64,000 bases of DNA from Paenibacillus sp. FSL H8-0548 (GTDB lineage Bacteria; Bacillota; Bacilli; Paenibacillales; Paenibacillaceae), in contig NZ_CP152049.1 of assembly GCF_038630985.1 (NCBI RefSeq), positions 4,111,501 to 4,175,500 of the forward strand, read 5' to 3'. A program made the translations under genes and the position numbers. Positions within the stretch are counted from its first letter, which is position 1. The number at the start of each line of letters is the position of its first letter. The notes beneath the pieces were generated by a model. It did not search any database and had not been told where the DNA came from. It saw only the letters and a program-made list of their open reading frames with translations. This document shows positions 15,836-48,547 of the stretch, in pieces.

Positions 15836-15870
15836 AAAAAAAAGCCACCCCGAAGGGTGGACTGTACTCG
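15836..15870 (-). terminator. Terminator after the MerR gene, same family as the sRNA-like elements
   Basis: On the minus strand CCACCC-TTCG-GGGTGG is followed by GC and eight T. This terminator and the adjacent GTACTC are almost identical to those of the sRNA candidate at 20681-20764, but the rest of that element is not present here. Confidence 0.8.
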
Positions 15871-15874
15871 ACAC

Positions 15875-16597
15875 TTAGCTCGACTCATCGGCAACGAAGG
15901 TGTTACCTGTTGAAATAACTTCAAAAAGGTTTTGCAAATATGCGATACCTCGCACTTGTTCAACTAATGCATAATCAATAAATTGAAGGGATTGATAAGC
16001 AATTTCTTTTGCCTGAGAAACATCGTTGTTGTCAAGGCCCAATAATACTTCTCGAACTATATCCAAGGAGTAGGCGACCCTTTGAACCGTTCGGATAATA
16101 AGCACCTTGCGAATATCAGTCCGAAAATAAATACGGAATCCACTTTCTTTTTGGCGATTAGGCTTTATTAAACCTTCTTTTTCCCAATGTCGAATGGAAG
16201 AAGCAGATACATTAGCTAATTTAGCTACCTCTCCAATCGTAAAAGCACTCTTGCTAAGATACTTTGGAAATTCTGCATTTTCTATTAAATCAATCATCTC
16301 AATTGCCCTTAGGACTGTTTCCTTCTCAGCATGGAGGTTCACTTGTGCTTTATTAATTTTCCATAAAATACCAAGTTTTTCTCTCTTTATGATAAGCGGC
16401 ATAATTGTTCGAACTAAATCCATGCCAAACCCAGGAATCAGAGCACGAATACATTGAAAATATGCCTCATGTTCCTTTGTGTAGATGCGATACCCATTTG
16501 AAGCTCTCTCAATTTCAGGAACAAGTCCCCACGATTCATAGTGTCTTAATGCACTTGTGCTTATATTCAATTTTTTCGCTATCTCAATACCCTTCAT
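15875..16597 (-). CDS. MerR-family regulator with two HTH domains
   Basis: Transcription regulator of 240 residues with two MerR-type DNA-binding modules in one chain. The first is at residues 1-70 (IAKKLNISTSALRHYESWGL, then RIYT). The second is at about 118-185 (TIGEVAKLANVSASSIRHWE, then FRIYFRTD). Most MerR proteins have one such module and dimerise, so a tandem form may bind as a monomer or bridge two sites. The C-terminal 55 residues contain no Cys cluster of the metal-sensing kind. It is transcribed divergently from a VOC-fold gene 164 bases away, which is its most likely target. Confidence 0.85.
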   Translation of the reverse strand: MKGIEIAKKLNISTSALRHYESWGLVPEIERASNGYRIYTKEHEAYFQCIRALIPGFGMDLVRTIMPLIIKREKLGILWKINKAQVNLHAEKETVLRAIEMIDLIENAEFPKYLSKSAFTIGEVAKLANVSASSIRHWEKEGLIKPNRQKESGFRIYFRTDIRKVLIIRTVQRVAYSLDIVREVLLGLDNNDVSQAKEIAYQSLQFIDYALVEQVRGIAYLQNLFEVISTGNTFVADESS

Positions 16598-18976: not shown

Positions 18977-19163
18977 TTCTAACGGAAACCACAGACGCTA
19001 AATCGCCTTTATTTTTCGTTTCAAGATTCTAACGGAAATACGCGCCTCTATTTGTACCCTACATGCCCGATTTCGCTTCATTTCTGCGGAATAGCGTCTC
19101 CCTGTTCCGTTAAAATGTGACGCTAACCCAATATGCAACTTTAGCGTCTCTGGCTTCCGTTAG
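18977..19163. repeat. Cluster of four direct and inverted 23-27 bp units
   Basis: Two units read TTCTAACGGAA followed by about ten bases and GCGCCTCTA or ACGCTAAAT (18977-19003 and 19027-19053). Two further units are their inverse, TAGCGTCTC then TTCCGTTA (19091-19116 and 19141-19163). The outer pair is nearly complementary over its whole length. An extra GACGCTAAC fragment lies at 19118-19126. The layout is that of a small palindromic non-coding repeat element. Confidence 0.7.
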
Positions 19164-19240
19164 CTTTCGTTCTCTGCTCACTGGCTGCTGCCGCAGCATC
19201 ATGATCAACAGGTTCAGAGAATGCATAATTTCCTAAACAA

Positions 19241-19313
19241 AAAAAAAACCACCTAAAAAGGTGGCCTGCACTCACTTAGAGTGCAAAATTATAGCTAGGA
19301 GTGGAGAGTCTAC
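19241..19313 (-). ncRNA. sRNA-like two-hairpin element, 3' of the ankyrin gene
   Basis: On the minus strand CTCTCCACTCCTA (19296-19308) is followed by hairpin GCACTC/GAGTGC (19268-19284) and terminator CCACCT/AGGTGG plus ten T. The order and the 13-base box match the candidate at 20681-20764. Here it begins about 20 bases after the ankyrin gene stop and no own promoter is seen, so it may be a 3'UTR-derived RNA or only a conserved terminator region. Confidence 0.55.
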
Positions 19314-19328
19314 TTAACTTACCACGCT

Positions 19329-20192
19329 TCATGATTCAGGCTGTTCATGCAAGTATGACTTAAGTAGTTCTGCAATCGCATCAGCATTTTGTTGGTCTTC
19401 GGGGAAACTTTTCTTTTCTGCAATTTCTAAAGGTGTGCCACTCACAGACTCTATAGAAGGATCAGCACCGTGTTCTAATAAGTACTTGACTATTTCGTAT
19501 CTGCTGTATAATACCGCATTATGCAGTAGAGTTATTCCATTAAATTCTTCTCGGGCATTTACATTCATATCGTATTCTAAGAAGAATGCAACCATCTCAA
19601 GGTTATCTCCATAATAAGGAACAAAACTGTATATTGCTGGCCCTAACGGTCCTACCCCTACAGTTGGGTCAGCACCTTGTTGCAAATACTTTTCAGTTTC
19701 CGCTAAATCATTGCGCATGATTGCCTTATTTAACTGAACCTGTTTTGCTGAAAGTAACCAGGCATTATTACCGCCCTCTTCACCATAAACTTGTAATTCT
19801 CCACCGCTTGATTCGCTAATAAATCGTAAAGGAACAAAGGTAAAACCCTGTATTATAACGGGGGCTGCCGGCATGTCTACAAGCTTGCCATTAACGATTG
19901 CTTTTTTGGATCCAACAGTCAACGTAATTGTTAAATCAGAACTTTCCCCAATGATTTGTTTGCTCTCTGGTTTCCACTTCACATGCAGTCCTAGTCGTTC
20001 AAAAACCGGTCGAAACGGAGCAACTGTTGTTCCATTCAGTACAACTGGATGATTAGCCCGTGTAAACTCAACCTTCTTCCCATCTATCGACAGAGTGTAA
20101 GGGAAGATTTTGATGGCAGCAGAAGTGCGCGGAAGACCGATACTAGCACTTACAAGAAGAACCAGCAAGGAAACAAGAAGCCATCTCCTCAT
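19329..20192 (-). CDS. Exported protein with stalk domain and ankyrin repeats
   Basis: A 287-residue protein. A signal peptide spans residues 1-25. A copper amine oxidase N-terminal-like (stalk) domain covers about 30-135, with the recurrent VVLNGTTVAPFRPVFERLGL and GFTFVPLRFISESSGG pattern typical of Paenibacillus surface proteins. About 100 residues of ankyrin repeats follow, including ITLLHNAVLYSRYEIVKYLL and EHGADPSIESVSGTPLEIAE. It probably acts outside the membrane in protein-protein contact; the partner is unknown. The sRNA-like element 19241-19313 forms its 3' end. Confidence 0.85.
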   Translation of the reverse strand: MRRWLLVSLLVLLVSASIGLPRTSAAIKIFPYTLSIDGKKVEFTRANHPVVLNGTTVAPFRPVFERLGLHVKWKPESKQIIGESSDLTITLTVGSKKAIVNGKLVDMPAAPVIIQGFTFVPLRFISESSGGELQVYGEEGGNNAWLLSAKQVQLNKAIMRNDLAETEKYLQQGADPTVGVGPLGPAIYSFVPYYGDNLEMVAFFLEYDMNVNAREEFNGITLLHNAVLYSRYEIVKYLLEHGADPSIESVSGTPLEIAEKKSFPEDQQNADAIAELLKSYLHEQPES

Positions 20193-20296
20193 TCATTTCA
20201 CCTTCTTAATAGTTATTGTCTTACCAGAACTCCTTACCTTAGTCATTCCTATAAATTCAATCAAGAATTACGAATGGCCTGATGCGTGATAGGGTA

Positions 20297-20500
20297 TTAT
20301 TTGAAGCAATCTTCTTCAATATACACGACTTCTACTTGTTCATCGAAATGATATTTTGGTTCTTTAATTCTTTTAAAATCATTGAAATGTATCTTCAATT
20401 CAGTTCTACCATTTTTAATAATTAGATATTTATTATGTATTGACTTGCAGAGGTAGACTTTCGATTGATAAACACCCCATGAATTCAAAAAATTATCCAT
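20297..20500 (-). CDS. Hypothetical protein, 67 aa
   Basis: Small soluble protein with many Lys, Phe and Tyr and alternating beta-like segments (KVYLCKSIHNKYLIIKNG, QVEVVYIEEDCFK). No family is recognised. AGGGGAAG about five to seven bases before the ATG supports translation. It lies downstream of the sRNA candidate at 20681-20764 on the same strand, about 180 bases past its terminator. Confidence 0.55.
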   Translation of the reverse strand: MDNFLNSWGVYQSKVYLCKSIHNKYLIIKNGRTELKIHFNDFKRIKEPKYHFDEQVEVVYIEEDCFK

Positions 20501-20680
20501 GTTATCTTCCCCTCTTACATGTTTTCAGGGTATTTCAACCACTGTCTTAATTACGAACTTAGCGAACTTTCCATATTAAGGTATTCGCGAATGGATTAAA
20601 CTATCCTGCCCGTTCATATTACCATTTCACTAGATGTTTATTTGTAACTCAGACTTTATCAGAAAGATCTTTAAATGGAC

Positions 20681-20764
20681 AAAAAAAAGCCACCCCGAAG
20701 GGTGGTCCGTACTCATGATGAGCACTACAGGATTTGGATAGGAGTGGAGAGAAACCATACTGTA
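20681..20764 (-). ncRNA. Candidate small RNA gene (about 84 nt)
   Basis: A self-contained transcription unit. A perfect-consensus promoter lies at 20770-20798. The predicted start is near 20764. The RNA then has an unpaired CTCTCCACTCCTA box (20739-20751), hairpin GTGCTC/GAGTAC (20709-20725) and terminator CCACCC/GGGTGG (20690-20705) followed by eight T. The pyrimidine-rich box is complementary to Shine-Dalgarno-like GGAG sequences, which suggests a base-pairing regulator. That role is inference. It could instead be an attenuated leader of the 67-residue gene downstream. Confidence 0.65.
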
Positions 20765-20769
20765 CCTTT

Positions 20770-20798
20770 ATTATATGTATACGCTTCCATTTTGTCAA
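20770..20798 (-). promoter_or_regulatory. Perfect sigma-A promoter for the sRNA candidate
   Basis: Minus strand TTGACA (20793-20798) and TATAAT (20770-20775) with a 17-base spacer, the full consensus on all three counts. Confidence 0.85.
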
Positions 20799-20854
20799 TA
20801 AGCGTTTTCATTTTTATTTAAATTATTTTGTAAGCGCTTGTTCCTAATAAAACT

Positions 20855-20891
20855 CAAAAAAAAGACGCACACCCTGTTAAAGGTGAACGTC
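20855..20891 (-). terminator. Terminator of the aromatic supraoperon
   Basis: GACG/CGTC and CACC/GGTG arms form a hairpin that overlaps the last codons of tyrA and is followed by eight T on the minus strand. Confidence 0.8.
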
Positions 20892-21968
20892 ATAGCCTTT
20901 CGCTGTAAGCAGTACGACCGCTTGATCCAAGTACTCTTGGCTTCGGAAGGAAAGCCGGAGAATGCCAGGGATGTCTTCCCTGCTCTCACTAATATGAATA
21001 TTGCTGAGGTTAATCAGACTATTTCCGAGCTCGCTTGTGATTTTACCAATAATACCTGGATGATCCGGAATATCGACGTAGCAATCAAACGCAGAATGAA
21101 TCATGCCTTTGCGCCGCTCCGGCATTTTGCTGCGGAATTGACCTGCCGCATCAAAAGCTTCTGCTATTCCCTCTCCGTCTGAAGCTTCGAGCATCGTGAC
21201 GAACTTTTCCATTTCTTTACCCCAATCACGAAGCAGCTCTAGCAATACCTTGCGATTATTAATTAATATATCGCGCCAAATAATCGGATCGCCTGATGCA
21301 ATACGTGTAATATCGCGGAAGCCCCCTGCTGCTAATGATTCATAAAGCTCATTGGTTTCATTATAGCCTCGAACCTGATTAACTAGCGAGACAGCGATGA
21401 TATGGGGCAAATGGCTAATTGCACCTGCAATCTCATCATGCTCCTTAGACTCTACCTTGACAATATTCGCTTTCGTATGGCTCAGAAGCTCTATAAGCCG
21501 ATCTACAGCCTCCACTGGTGTATCCACTTCGGGTGTCAGAACGTAGAAAGCGTTCTCGTATAGGTGCGACGAAGCAGCCTCAACACCTGTCCGCTCTGAC
21601 CCAGCCATCGGATGACCGCCAATAAATGTAGCATGGCCAAAATCAAGCGTTCTTGCCCGCTCCATGACGGACGCCTTCGTACTTCCAGCATCAGTCACAA
21701 TACAGCCAGGCTTCAATTGAAAGCCGCTTAGCTTAACGAGATACTCTTCAAGATTACCAACGGGTACGCATATAAATATAAAATCGGCTTGCTCCGCCGC
21801 CTCCTGCATTGAGGTTGTTGCATAGTCAACAACACCTCGCTGCATATATTTCTCCACTTGAGAAGGACGATTCGAATGTCCGATAACTTTAATTCCAGGT
21901 TTTCCTTTAAAGCATAAGGCTAGTGAGCCGCCGATCAGCCCCACGCCAAAAATCGCTACAGTTGTCAT
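20877..21968 (-). CDS. tyrA: Prephenate dehydrogenase TyrA with ACT domain
   Basis: Oxidative decarboxylation of prephenate to 4-hydroxyphenylpyruvate, the tyrosine branch. The NAD-binding motif GVGLIGGS is at residues 8-15. A helical dimerisation domain follows, and the catalytic region includes GGHPMAGSERTGVEA and ISHLPHIIAVSL. The last 75 residues form an ACT domain (CYVDIPDHPGIIGKITSELG), the probable site of tyrosine feedback. The ATG at 21968 gives the normal 363-residue length. It is the last gene of the supraoperon, four bases after hisC. Confidence 0.95.
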   Translation of the reverse strand: MTTVAIFGVGLIGGSLALCFKGKPGIKVIGHSNRPSQVEKYMQRGVVDYATTSMQEAAEQADFIFICVPVGNLEEYLVKLSGFQLKPGCIVTDAGSTKASVMERARTLDFGHATFIGGHPMAGSERTGVEAASSHLYENAFYVLTPEVDTPVEAVDRLIELLSHTKANIVKVESKEHDEIAGAISHLPHIIAVSLVNQVRGYNETNELYESLAAGGFRDITRIASGDPIIWRDILINNRKVLLELLRDWGKEMEKFVTMLEASDGEGIAEAFDAAGQFRSKMPERRKGMIHSAFDCYVDIPDHPGIIGKITSELGNSLINLSNIHISESREDIPGILRLSFRSQEYLDQAVVLLTAKGYDVHL

Positions 21969-21972
21969 AACT

Positions 21973-23070
21973 TTATCCTTGCACCGCCGCTTCCTGCAAA
22001 GCCTGTTCCAACGCCGCAATAAACTTCTCATTTTGCTCGCGTGTTCCTACCGTTATCCGAATATGATTTGGATAATACGTCCAGCGCGGTCTCGATATAA
22101 TGCCTCTGCGCAGCAGTCCGTCAAAAACCTCCGGCGAAGAACGCTTTACATCGACCATTACGAAATTCCCGTTTGCAGGGAAATAGGACAATCCCAAGCG
22201 ATCAAATTGCTCGGACAAATAATTGATGCCTTGTTTATTTTGGTCACAGCAGTAGCTAATAAATGCTTTATCTGCTAATGCAGATTTTGCAGCTGCCTGT
22301 GCTATACGGGACGTATTAAAAGGCTCACGGACTTGATTCGTAAATCGAATAACATCCGGATGCCCAACGCCATAGCCGATTCGCAGTGCAGCGAGTCCAT
22401 ATATTTTCGAAAAAGTACGCAATACAATTAAATTGCGATGCTCGCGAAGCAGCTGTACTCCATCTGGGAATTGTGGATCATCCACGTATTCACCATAGGC
22501 TTCATCAAGAACTACAAGCACATGGCTAGGCACTTCCTTCAAGAAGGCAGTTAGCTCTGGAAGCGTCACAATGGTCCCTGTCGGATTGTTAGGATTGCAA
22601 ATCCATATGATCTTAGTCTTGCTGTTCACCTTTGCCAGCATGGCAGGCAAATCATGCTTGCCTTCTTTAAGCGGTACCTCCACGATGCTTGCATTCTCGA
22701 TTTCAGCATTATGCTTATATTGGGGGAATGTTTCATCCGCCATAATCGTTTCATCGCCCGGGACGATAAACGCTCTATTAATCATAAGTATAATTTCACT
22801 CGAGCCTGTGCCAAAAATAATCTGATTCGGTTCCACGCCAAGCTCTTCCGCTAAAGCTGCGGTTAGCTCTACGCTCGCTCCATCCGGATAAATATTAGAA
22901 TTTCCTATCTCTTCAATAATCGCTGCTTTAACATGCTCGGAGCAGCCAAATGGATTTTCATTAGATGCCAGTTTAATAACTTCTTGTAATCCTAGCTCCC
23001 TCTTAACATCCTCAACCGGCTTGCCTGGCTGATAGACGGGAAGGTGGACGATATTACTTTTGGGCTGCAT
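21973..23070 (-). CDS. hisC: Histidinol-phosphate/aromatic aminotransferase HisC
   Basis: PLP-dependent aminotransferase, 365 residues. In Bacillales the hisC product of this operon serves histidine synthesis and also transaminates phenylpyruvate and 4-hydroxyphenylpyruvate. Fold-type I features visible are NPNNPTGT (about residue 158), DEAYGEYV (about 185) and the PLP lysine in FSKIYGLAALRIGYG (about 217-231). It lies between trpA and tyrA. A trpA-hisC gap of 240 bases holds a dispersed repeat and a terminator, so it may be transcribed partly on its own. Confidence 0.95.
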   Translation of the reverse strand: MQPKSNIVHLPVYQPGKPVEDVKRELGLQEVIKLASNENPFGCSEHVKAAIIEEIGNSNIYPDGASVELTAALAEELGVEPNQIIFGTGSSEIILMINRAFIVPGDETIMADETFPQYKHNAEIENASIVEVPLKEGKHDLPAMLAKVNSKTKIIWICNPNNPTGTIVTLPELTAFLKEVPSHVLVVLDEAYGEYVDDPQFPDGVQLLREHRNLIVLRTFSKIYGLAALRIGYGVGHPDVIRFTNQVREPFNTSRIAQAAAKSALADKAFISYCCDQNKQGINYLSEQFDRLGLSYFPANGNFVMVDVKRSSPEVFDGLLRRGIISRPRWTYYPNHIRITVGTREQNEKFIAALEQALQEAAVQG

Positions 23071-47224: not shown

Positions 47225-48547
47225 CTAATCTTCTTCGGACTTACGACGTGAGAATATTCGTATTGGCGTCCCTTCAAAATTAAATGCTGCACGAATTTTA
47301 TTTTCCAAATAGCGTTCATACGAGAAATGCATAATTTCCGGATCATTAACGAAAACAACGATCGTTGGCGGCTTGATAGCCACCTGCGTAACGTAGTTGA
47401 TGCGCAGACGTTTCCCTTTATCTGACGGCGGCGGATTAATAGCTACAGCATCTGATACCACATCATTAAGCAAATGTGTTTGAATACGCATCGAGTGCTG
47501 ATCAGATACATGCTTAACGACAGGAAGCAGCTTTTGTAAGCGCTGTTTCGTCAGTGCAGATAGATAAACGATTGGTGCATAGGACATAAACAAGAAGTGA
47601 TCACGAATATTTTGCGAGAAGTTTTGCATCGTTTTCTCGTCTTTATCGACGACATCCCACTTGTTTACAACGAAGATCGATGCTTTGCCCGCTTCATGAG
47701 CATAACCAGCAATATGCTTGTCCTGCTCAATAATGCCTTCTTCGCCATTGATCAGCACAAGAACAACGTCAGCACGCTCGATTGCTTTCATTGCACGCAT
47801 TACGCTATATTTCTCCGTAGACTCATACACCTTGCCGCGTTTACGCATACCAGCAGTATCGATAAGCACATACCGTTGTCCATCACGCTCAAACGGTGTA
47901 TCAATAGCATCACGCGTCGTACCCGCCACATTGCTGACGATTACACGATCTTCACCGAGCAGCGCATTGACCAAGGAGGATTTCCCAACGTTAGGACGTC
48001 CGATTAACGCTACTCGAATAACATCCTCGTCATACTCATCGTCAATTAGCTCAGGCAATAGTGCAACTGTAGCATCAAGCAGATCACCTATCCCGAGACC
48101 ATGGGAACCAGAAATAGCGAGCGGCTCTCCAAAGCCTAGGCCATAAAACTCGTAAACCTCATCCATACGTCCTTGATTATCTACTTTATTTACTGCCAGT
48201 ACAACGGGCTTGCCCGAACGAAAAAGCATTTGAGCTACTTCATCATCCGCATGCGTCAAGCCTGATTTTGCATCGGCCATAAAGATAATTACATCTGCTT
48301 CTTCAATTGCGAGCTCTGCCTGCATACGTACAGATTTCATAATTTCATCTTCGCCATCAATTTCAATACCGCCAGTATCAATAATACTGAACGCTTTGCC
48401 ATTCCACTCTCCGGTGCCGTACAATCTGTCACGTGTGACTCCCGGTTTATCCTCAACAATTGCTAGACGGTCGCCGATTACCCGATTAAAAATCGTGGAT
48501 TTACCCACATTCGGACGGCCAACGATAGCGATAACGGGTCTTGCCAT
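47225..48547 (-). CDS. der: GTPase Der (EngA)
   Basis: Double GTPase for 50S ribosome assembly, 440 residues. First G domain: [16 protein letters not shown] (residues 10-25), DTGG, NKVD. Second: [16 protein letters not shown] (about 183-198), DTAG and NKWD. C-terminal KH-like domain. Essential in B. subtilis. Complete. Confidence 0.98.

Follow-up and report, generated by a model that had tools for sequence, protein, structure and literature searches.

A conserved small RNA gene of Bacilli with probable CcpA repression and a probable second role as a serine-integrase attachment site

On its minus strand, the window (the whole 64,000-nucleotide stretch of Paenibacillus sp. FSL H8-0548 DNA that was analysed) carries a consensus promoter and a terminator at 20681–20798, which raises the question of whether they enclose a small RNA (sRNA) gene of their own or merely the terminated leader of a 67-residue gene downstream. 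The comparisons described here point to a C/U-rich trans-acting sRNA that would be repressed by CcpA, from a gene that also serves in relatives as the attachment site (attB) of serine-integrase prophages; taken as a whole, we consider this explanation probable.

The gene, its transcript and its predicted fold

The promoter, TTGACA-N17-TATAAT (20770..20798, minus strand), matches the sigma-A consensus at 12 of 12 positions, in agreement with the original prediction, and is the sole 12/12 match among those listed for 19000–23000. Transcription would start near 20764, giving an RNA of around 84 nt (20681..20764, minus strand; 103.7 bits with model R1). The terminator noted beforehand is also present in the sequence: this intrinsic terminator (20681..20705, minus strand) consists of a stem at 20705–20690 followed by C and eight T. 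The RNA from 20764 to 20681 is predicted to fold at -24.1 kcal/mol (z -2.7), a value equalled by one of 200 shuffled sequences. The hairpin GTGCTC/GAGTAC that had been proposed between box and terminator exists, but contains one wobble pair (GUGCUC/GAGUAC).

Homologues were compared in alignment A1, which comprises 56 distinct transcripts and omits L098 and duplicates. In their MFE folds the middle hairpin, P2 (20708..20726, minus strand), is variable in sequence and appears in all 56, and the terminator in 53; both show compensatory changes. In alignment A2 (29 sequences) 94.4% of the cells pair, and changes on both sides of a pair occur in 41 cells, compared with 11.3 in shuffled alignments and 3–8 when the partners were slid; one measure of five, further pair types, did not rise above the shuffles (237 of 500). 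Alignment A3, with 50 model-aligned matches, has double changes in 16 of 16 pairs (187 cells versus 43.9), although it was fitted to the model, leans towards it and includes two partial copies. The test proposed beforehand, a covariance-model search with compensatory changes and a conserved box, was run and passed.

A 5' core of 28 nucleotides, ACAGTATGGTTTCTCTCCACTCCTATCC (20736..20763, minus strand), is identical in all 56 transcripts, and every one of 66 loci, taken from 62 genomes within the family, has an exact copy of the 5' part. Because it is invariant, this part lies beyond the reach of covariation. It contains the C/U-rich segment UUUCUCUCCACUCCUAU (20738..20754, minus strand), presumably the seed, which forms a 17-nt loop in the fold of the window's own RNA. 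The original prediction took this box to be unpaired. It is mostly free, but not wholly so: over the 56 homologue folds, the mean unpaired probability per base is 0.60–0.99 at transcript positions 11–27 and 0.55 at positions 28–29. A GG/CC pairing closes the C/U loop in 25 of the MFE folds, the window's among them, a UGG-CCA pairing forms inside the box in 21, and seven have other arrangements; in three (L014, L071 and L093) the box pairs with the 3' arm of the terminator. The predicted fold of the 5' part thus varies among homologues.

An ATG at +7 opens a frame, MVSLHSYP, that stays open across the invariant core in 17 homologues inspected, and the conserved segment might accordingly be a leaderless micro-ORF, making the RNA a tiny mRNA or a dual-function RNA. 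The frame, however, varies from 8 to 57 aa among these homologues without a common end, its third codon positions show no more variation than the first two, and there is too little space ahead of +7 for a ribosome-binding site; a coding role is accordingly quite unlikely. The stretch is almost certainly an sRNA gene, as had been proposed. As expected of a bacterial trans-acting sRNA, it has its own promoter and terminator, independent of the flanking genes, and a conserved secondary structure with covariation in both hairpin and terminator. Comparison of the sequences establishes the predicted stand-alone gene as a consensus promoter holding a cre (CcpA) site, a C/U-rich 5' part with 28 invariant nucleotides, and a pair of hairpins that covary, the second being the terminator.

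Distribution, neighbouring genes and cre sites

BLASTN with positions 20670–20800 found the element in all 51 genomes of the genus, which is beyond chance, and in all 394 genomes of the family, representing 19 of 19 genera. With a covariance model trained on 29 sequences, the sRNA was recovered from 293 of the 296 genomes searched in the order, covering 47 of 48 genera. Across the class Bacilli, the model matched 121 of 299 genomes at E<=1e-3, 27 belonging to the same family and 94 to other orders; the remaining 178 of the 299 gave no match. The 20-mer GGTTTCTCTCCACTCCTATC stands behind a promoter-like stretch in all 20 loci fetched from 19 of these 94 genomes, loci that were picked by hand and biased towards higher scores. 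An exact scan of named genomes for the same 20-mer gave at least 118 stretches, and the matches listed include Paenibacillus, Cohnella, Brevibacillus, Aneurinibacillus, Shouchella, Halalkalibacter, Fictibacillus and Thermoactinomyces.

No family in Rfam 15 matched the sRNA at its curated (gathering) threshold. The candidates obtained at low thresholds all scored below gathering and were rejected, the top one, PrrB_RsmZ, lying on the opposite strand. The plasmids searched contained no copy, and the phage sequences searched gave only 11 weak, partial matches (E>=4e-3). In literature outside subscription papers we found no sRNA of this sequence described, so that an earlier description is possible. 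An invariant core that spans several orders of Bacilli and matches no Rfam family is unusual.

Gene context was surveyed in 100 loci, namely the 20 loci from other orders and 80 of the at least 118 exact 20-mer stretches; they are not independent, and include near-duplicates. With six query proteins only, 2.5 kb upstream and 3.5 kb downstream, and some loci cut by contig or locus ends, the nearest recognised gene upstream was tyrA in 45, aroA in 32, hisC in 4, ypiA in 5, ECF sigma in 4 and none in 10, and downstream ECF sigma in 48, ypiA in 15, ypiB in 4, aroA in 6, tyrA in 5 and none in 22. Thus 81 of the 100 loci have tyrA, hisC or aroA as an upstream neighbour in the same orientation, and these tallies also suggest a reversed gene order in about ten. 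The putative sRNA gene hence recurs beside aromatic amino-acid genes in several orders of Bacilli. In two relatives (G013 and G028) it is found only a few hundred bases ahead of the ECF sigma gene, with no insert, while in the window some 13 kb of other genes separate the two.

These neighbourhoods bear on the suggestion that the RNA is a terminated cis-acting leader (attenuator) of the gene downstream. Such a leader would end at a terminator with a same-strand gene beyond it, as this one does, and across the orders ECF sigma, ypiA or ypiB is frequently the first gene recognised beyond it (67 of 100). However, the downstream genes vary between genomes and, next to the integrase described below, run in the opposite direction, whereas the unit from promoter to terminator is kept whatever lies downstream. 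The particular case put forward at the outset, a leader of the 67-residue gene, gained no support: among the fetched loci searched (ids <200 and >300) that protein occurs only in three loci of its own genome, and the sRNA persists elsewhere with other genes downstream. We consider a leader very unlikely, and an independent sRNA gene remains the preferred reading.

Between the -35 and -10 elements lies ATGGAAGCGTATACATA (20774..20790, minus strand), a perfect match to WTGNAARCGNWWWCAWW, which we take to be the cre consensus, and the sole perfect match within the 64-kb window. A second cre-like sequence, TGAAAACGCTTATT (20797..20810, minus strand), overlaps the -35 element, and the same 12/14 sequence lies upstream in several relatives. 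The cre in the promoter spacer is perfect in 53 of 66 homologous loci, and the remaining 13 fit a relaxed form. In the set of 100 loci, a cre of at least 12/14 was found within 70 nt upstream in 61 and within 90 nt after the core in 39, together covering 86 loci compared with 66 of 500 shuffled sequences; 14 loci had none at 12/14 within these limits. By eye, many of the downstream sites lie inside the terminator stem-loop, in lineages without a promoter cre. A cre thus lies either within the promoter or in transcribed sequence, as in members of the CcpA regulon, and because it is perfect in the window and in 53 of 66 loci, and present at 12/14 or better in 86 of 100, CcpA control of the sRNA is likely. 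Its persistence, though its place differs between lineages, suggests a link to carbon control.

Some details of these regulatory regions were also recorded. Cre-like palindromes at the terminator stem-loop, instead of or besides the promoter, were seen in L203–L205, L207, L208, L211, L217–L219, L226, L238, L246–L249 and others, as if the predicted CcpA site had moved. In L207 (G557) and L218 (G572) the spacer of the sRNA promoter contains GGAGTGGAGAG, the reverse complement of the box, and L232 (Caldalkalibacillus mannanilyticus) has the near match GCAGTGGAGAG; the result is an inverted repeat spanning promoter and transcript in all three.

Serine integrases and the surrounding copies

In one relative (G026) an intact serine recombinase of 503 aa, followed by an S24-type repressor gene, has a stop codon that overlaps the T-tract of the sRNA. 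With this protein as the query (E<=1e-60), a large serine recombinase (LSR) homologue was found in four of 295 genomes of the family, namely G026 itself and three from two other genera at 54–55% identity; all four contain Resolvase, Recombinase and Zn_ribbon domains, and all four genes abut the sRNA. The G346 locus has the main sRNA at one end and a promoterless copy of its 3' part at the other, corresponding to attL and attR; between them lie 46 kb of DNA with genes for terminase, portal, head, sheath, baseplate and amidase. The same two ends lie 46 kb apart in G344, gene content having been read in G346 only. At the empty site of G341 the right side matches attR of G346 and the left side matches attL. 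Four genomes therefore have an intact LSR beside attL, and two have attL and attR around a prophage where a relative is empty, and on these comparisons the sRNA gene is very probably the attB of serine integrases in relatives. The corresponding attB-like region of the window, defined by attL and attR of the G346 and G344 prophages, is 20725..20764 (minus strand), and the crossover dinucleotide would be TC at 20748/20747 (minus strand).

The sequence TCTCCACTCCTATCC is common to attB and attP of G346. The reconstructed attP is palindromic over 32–40 positions, a level never reached in 2000 base shuffles each, and its arms are exactly 34 bp apart in all four genomes, matching at 9/9 positions in G346, 9/9 in G344, 10/10 in G026 and 7/8 in G315; the left half of attP was taken for G026 from a copy elsewhere in the genome and for G315 from a copy on a different contig. 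In each of the four attP the left CAG motif stands 17 bp away from the centre, compared with 12 bp in attB, and by eye no such motif is seen in the right half of attB. Serine integrases, as exemplified by a Listeria phage integrase, have been described with an inverted-repeat attP and an attB motif shifted 5 bp toward the centre (excerpts of PMC3783163). The present sites resemble these in the inverted-repeat attP and, for the left half of attB only, in the 5-bp shift, and differ in that attP' additionally encodes an sRNA-like hairpin and terminator.

Since the crossover falls inside the box, the sRNA of a lysogen would receive a hairpin and terminator supplied by the phage. In the G346 lysogen this hairpin is GGACGTTC..GAACGTC, its first arm doubling as an attP arm, and attR keeps the host-like hairpin; the 3' half is replaced by a phage version in three genera. 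In these reconstructed sites, recombination in the box keeps promoter, cre and the core with the presumed seed and swaps hairpin and terminator for those of attP'; the original 3' half ends up beyond the other end of the prophage, where it has no promoter. Prophages in sRNA genes are as such already known. The pneumococcal genes csRNA3/ccnC and csRNA2/ccnB serve as prophage attB, and sRNA genes flank 17% of Salmonella enterica prophages, according to partial texts of PMC8637289 and PMC5502288, respectively. The likeness to those cases is that an sRNA gene is used as attB; the differences are a serine integrase, a crossover inside an invariant core and replacement of the 3' half of the sRNA.

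A search of about 72 kb around the G026 integrase gave no attR, and in G315 the attR-like copy is on another contig. The viral contigs searched held no matching LSR. As a free phage source, the closest record, Paenibacillus phage Pd_22F (L121, MZ092003.1), was rejected: it matches residues 1–213 only, and no box was found within the 16.6 kb read. Its recombinase was probably cut by an assembly fault, because a poly-C run and adapter-like sequence come just after the truncated gene.

Promoterless partial copies that start at the box are numerous. In G029 they extend over about 123 kb and in G031 over about 219 kb, in each case on a single strand; in other relatives such as G026 they lie on both strands and several contigs. 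A left flank, TCAGGAYAGGA (up to two mismatches), precedes the box at 40 sites, spread over 10 of the 51 genus genomes, compared with none for the reversed pattern, and at this setting is absent from the window's own genome. Six of the fetched loci have an integrase remnant next to a box copy (L034, L037, L038, L051, L054 and L060); others, in L033, L036 and a second one in L054, are away from any box seen. We read the arrays without an integrase as decayed or non-autonomous elements.

The window itself holds what may be a small relic of this process. At 19240..19321 (minus strand) lies a promoterless, attR-like copy with box, hairpin and terminator (R1 56.8 bits, E 5.6e-12), and at 15836..15873 (minus strand) a weaker one, a hairpin remnant with terminator (94% over 34 nt to the sRNA; R1 16.2 bits, E 0.038). 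Just beyond the sRNA, 20601..20676 (minus strand) aligns with a cassette end of G033 at a score of 32 (maximum 19 in shuffles, 0 of 500 reaching it) and appears to be the degenerate left end of an integrated cassette. Given this end and the relic at 19240–19321, the 67-aa ORF (20297..20500, minus strand; no Pfam match) and a gene for a protein with Cu_amine_oxidN1 and ankyrin domains (19329..20192, minus strand) are read as its cargo. Repeated integration and decay would have built the accessory-gene arrays, and the phage site could explain the large accessory islands at the sRNA locus. Group II introns and integron-type cassettes had been considered because genes alternate with hairpin-terminator copies, and were dropped when serine integrases and their remnants turned up beside the copies.

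So many promoterless copies might suggest that phages have simply spread a mobile attachment site, and that the conserved sequence is no host gene at all. Against this, the main copy occupies one syntenic place across orders, insert-free in G013 and G028, and has promoter, cre and covarying hairpins; a mere mobile attachment site is hardly credible, and the sequence is better read as a host sRNA gene that phages use.

Several further observations concern the copies and their surroundings. At L047:10367 (G026:C26) a promoterless B half, TACAGTATGGTTT, is followed by the box and begins at the inferred edge of attB. The islands between box copies in L033–L035 (G033) and L036–L038 (G029) hold spore germination genes (GerA/B/C-like), rhodanese/sulfur genes, transporters and two-component genes, the ORFs being judged by eye. 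In the window, 24-nt inverted repeats (18979–19163; 92% complementary, 137 nt apart) lie beside the relic copy and are possibly REP-like, and similar GCCGATGAGYCGAG sequences at 15892 and 17544 on the minus strand perhaps mark another cassette boundary.

Possible function of the RNA

While good carbon sources are abundant, CcpA bound to the cre would block the promoter; once they are exhausted, the sRNA would be made, and its C/U stretch could pair with G-rich ribosome-binding regions of several mRNAs and lower their translation. Whether the RNA acts against Shine-Dalgarno sequences in this manner, as was first guessed from the box, we regard as evenly balanced. In the window's own genome AGGAGTGGA-N(2,9)-ATG occurs 18 times, versus four for the reversed pattern, an excess that could stem from ordinary Shine-Dalgarno bias. 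Ten of the 18 ORFs that follow were scanned and showed no common theme, so that no target gains support from this set.

The invariant segment might instead be a decoy (sponge) that binds a protein or other sRNAs. Its 28-nt invariance exceeds that of many seeds, the occurrence of GGAGTGGAGAG in the L207 and L218 spacers, with the near match in L232, looks as if the box sequence itself were recognised, and a CcpA-controlled sponge, RosA, is known. However, RosA and RsaI bind C-rich sRNAs through G-rich regions, according to parts of the same source as for RosA (PMC8216469), whereas the segment here is C/U-rich. A decoy is thus a minor possibility, and pairing of the C/U-rich segment with mRNAs remains the reading we follow.

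Among known sRNAs, the closest in kind is RsaI (RsaOG) of Staphylococcus aureus, an independently transcribed sRNA under CcpA repression, which pairs with Shine-Dalgarno regions (excerpts of PMC9266662) and uses for its mRNA targets a C-rich region comparable with the C/U-rich core described here (PMC8216469, in part). In the same extracts RsaI is conserved in Staphylococcus and not in Bacilli, and no Rfam family matches the present sRNA at threshold. RosA of Bacillus subtilis is likewise a CcpA-regulated sRNA of Bacilli, but is there portrayed as a G-rich sponge without C-rich regions, unlike the C/U-rich core here. As to breadth, RsaE was named in 2015 as the only known trans-acting sRNA besides 6S RNA that is conserved between S. 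aureus and B. subtilis (abstract of PMC4409812); the range given here for the present sRNA leaves both species aside.

A functional analogue also exists in enterobacteria, and the case for a wider parallel is speculative. Spot 42 is a catabolite-repressed sRNA acting on carbon-use genes; it belongs to an unrelated lineage, responds to CRP rather than CcpA and depends on Hfq. It is conceivable, though we think it doubtful, that the present RNA is a general catabolite-controlled sRNA of Bacilli, a Gram-positive counterpart of Spot 42, with a core that is both seed for carbon-use mRNAs and phage landing site, so that lysogeny, by swapping hairpin and terminator, may retune the level or stability of the regulator. 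Because integration at the phage site exchanges the 3' half in nature, what hairpin and terminator contribute to sRNA function could be read from any lysogen.

A possible target was noted in the window, where AGGAGTGGAAAA precedes der at 48547. Among the matches listed, a similar site lies 27–28 kb upstream of the sRNA in G003, G004, G006 and G008.
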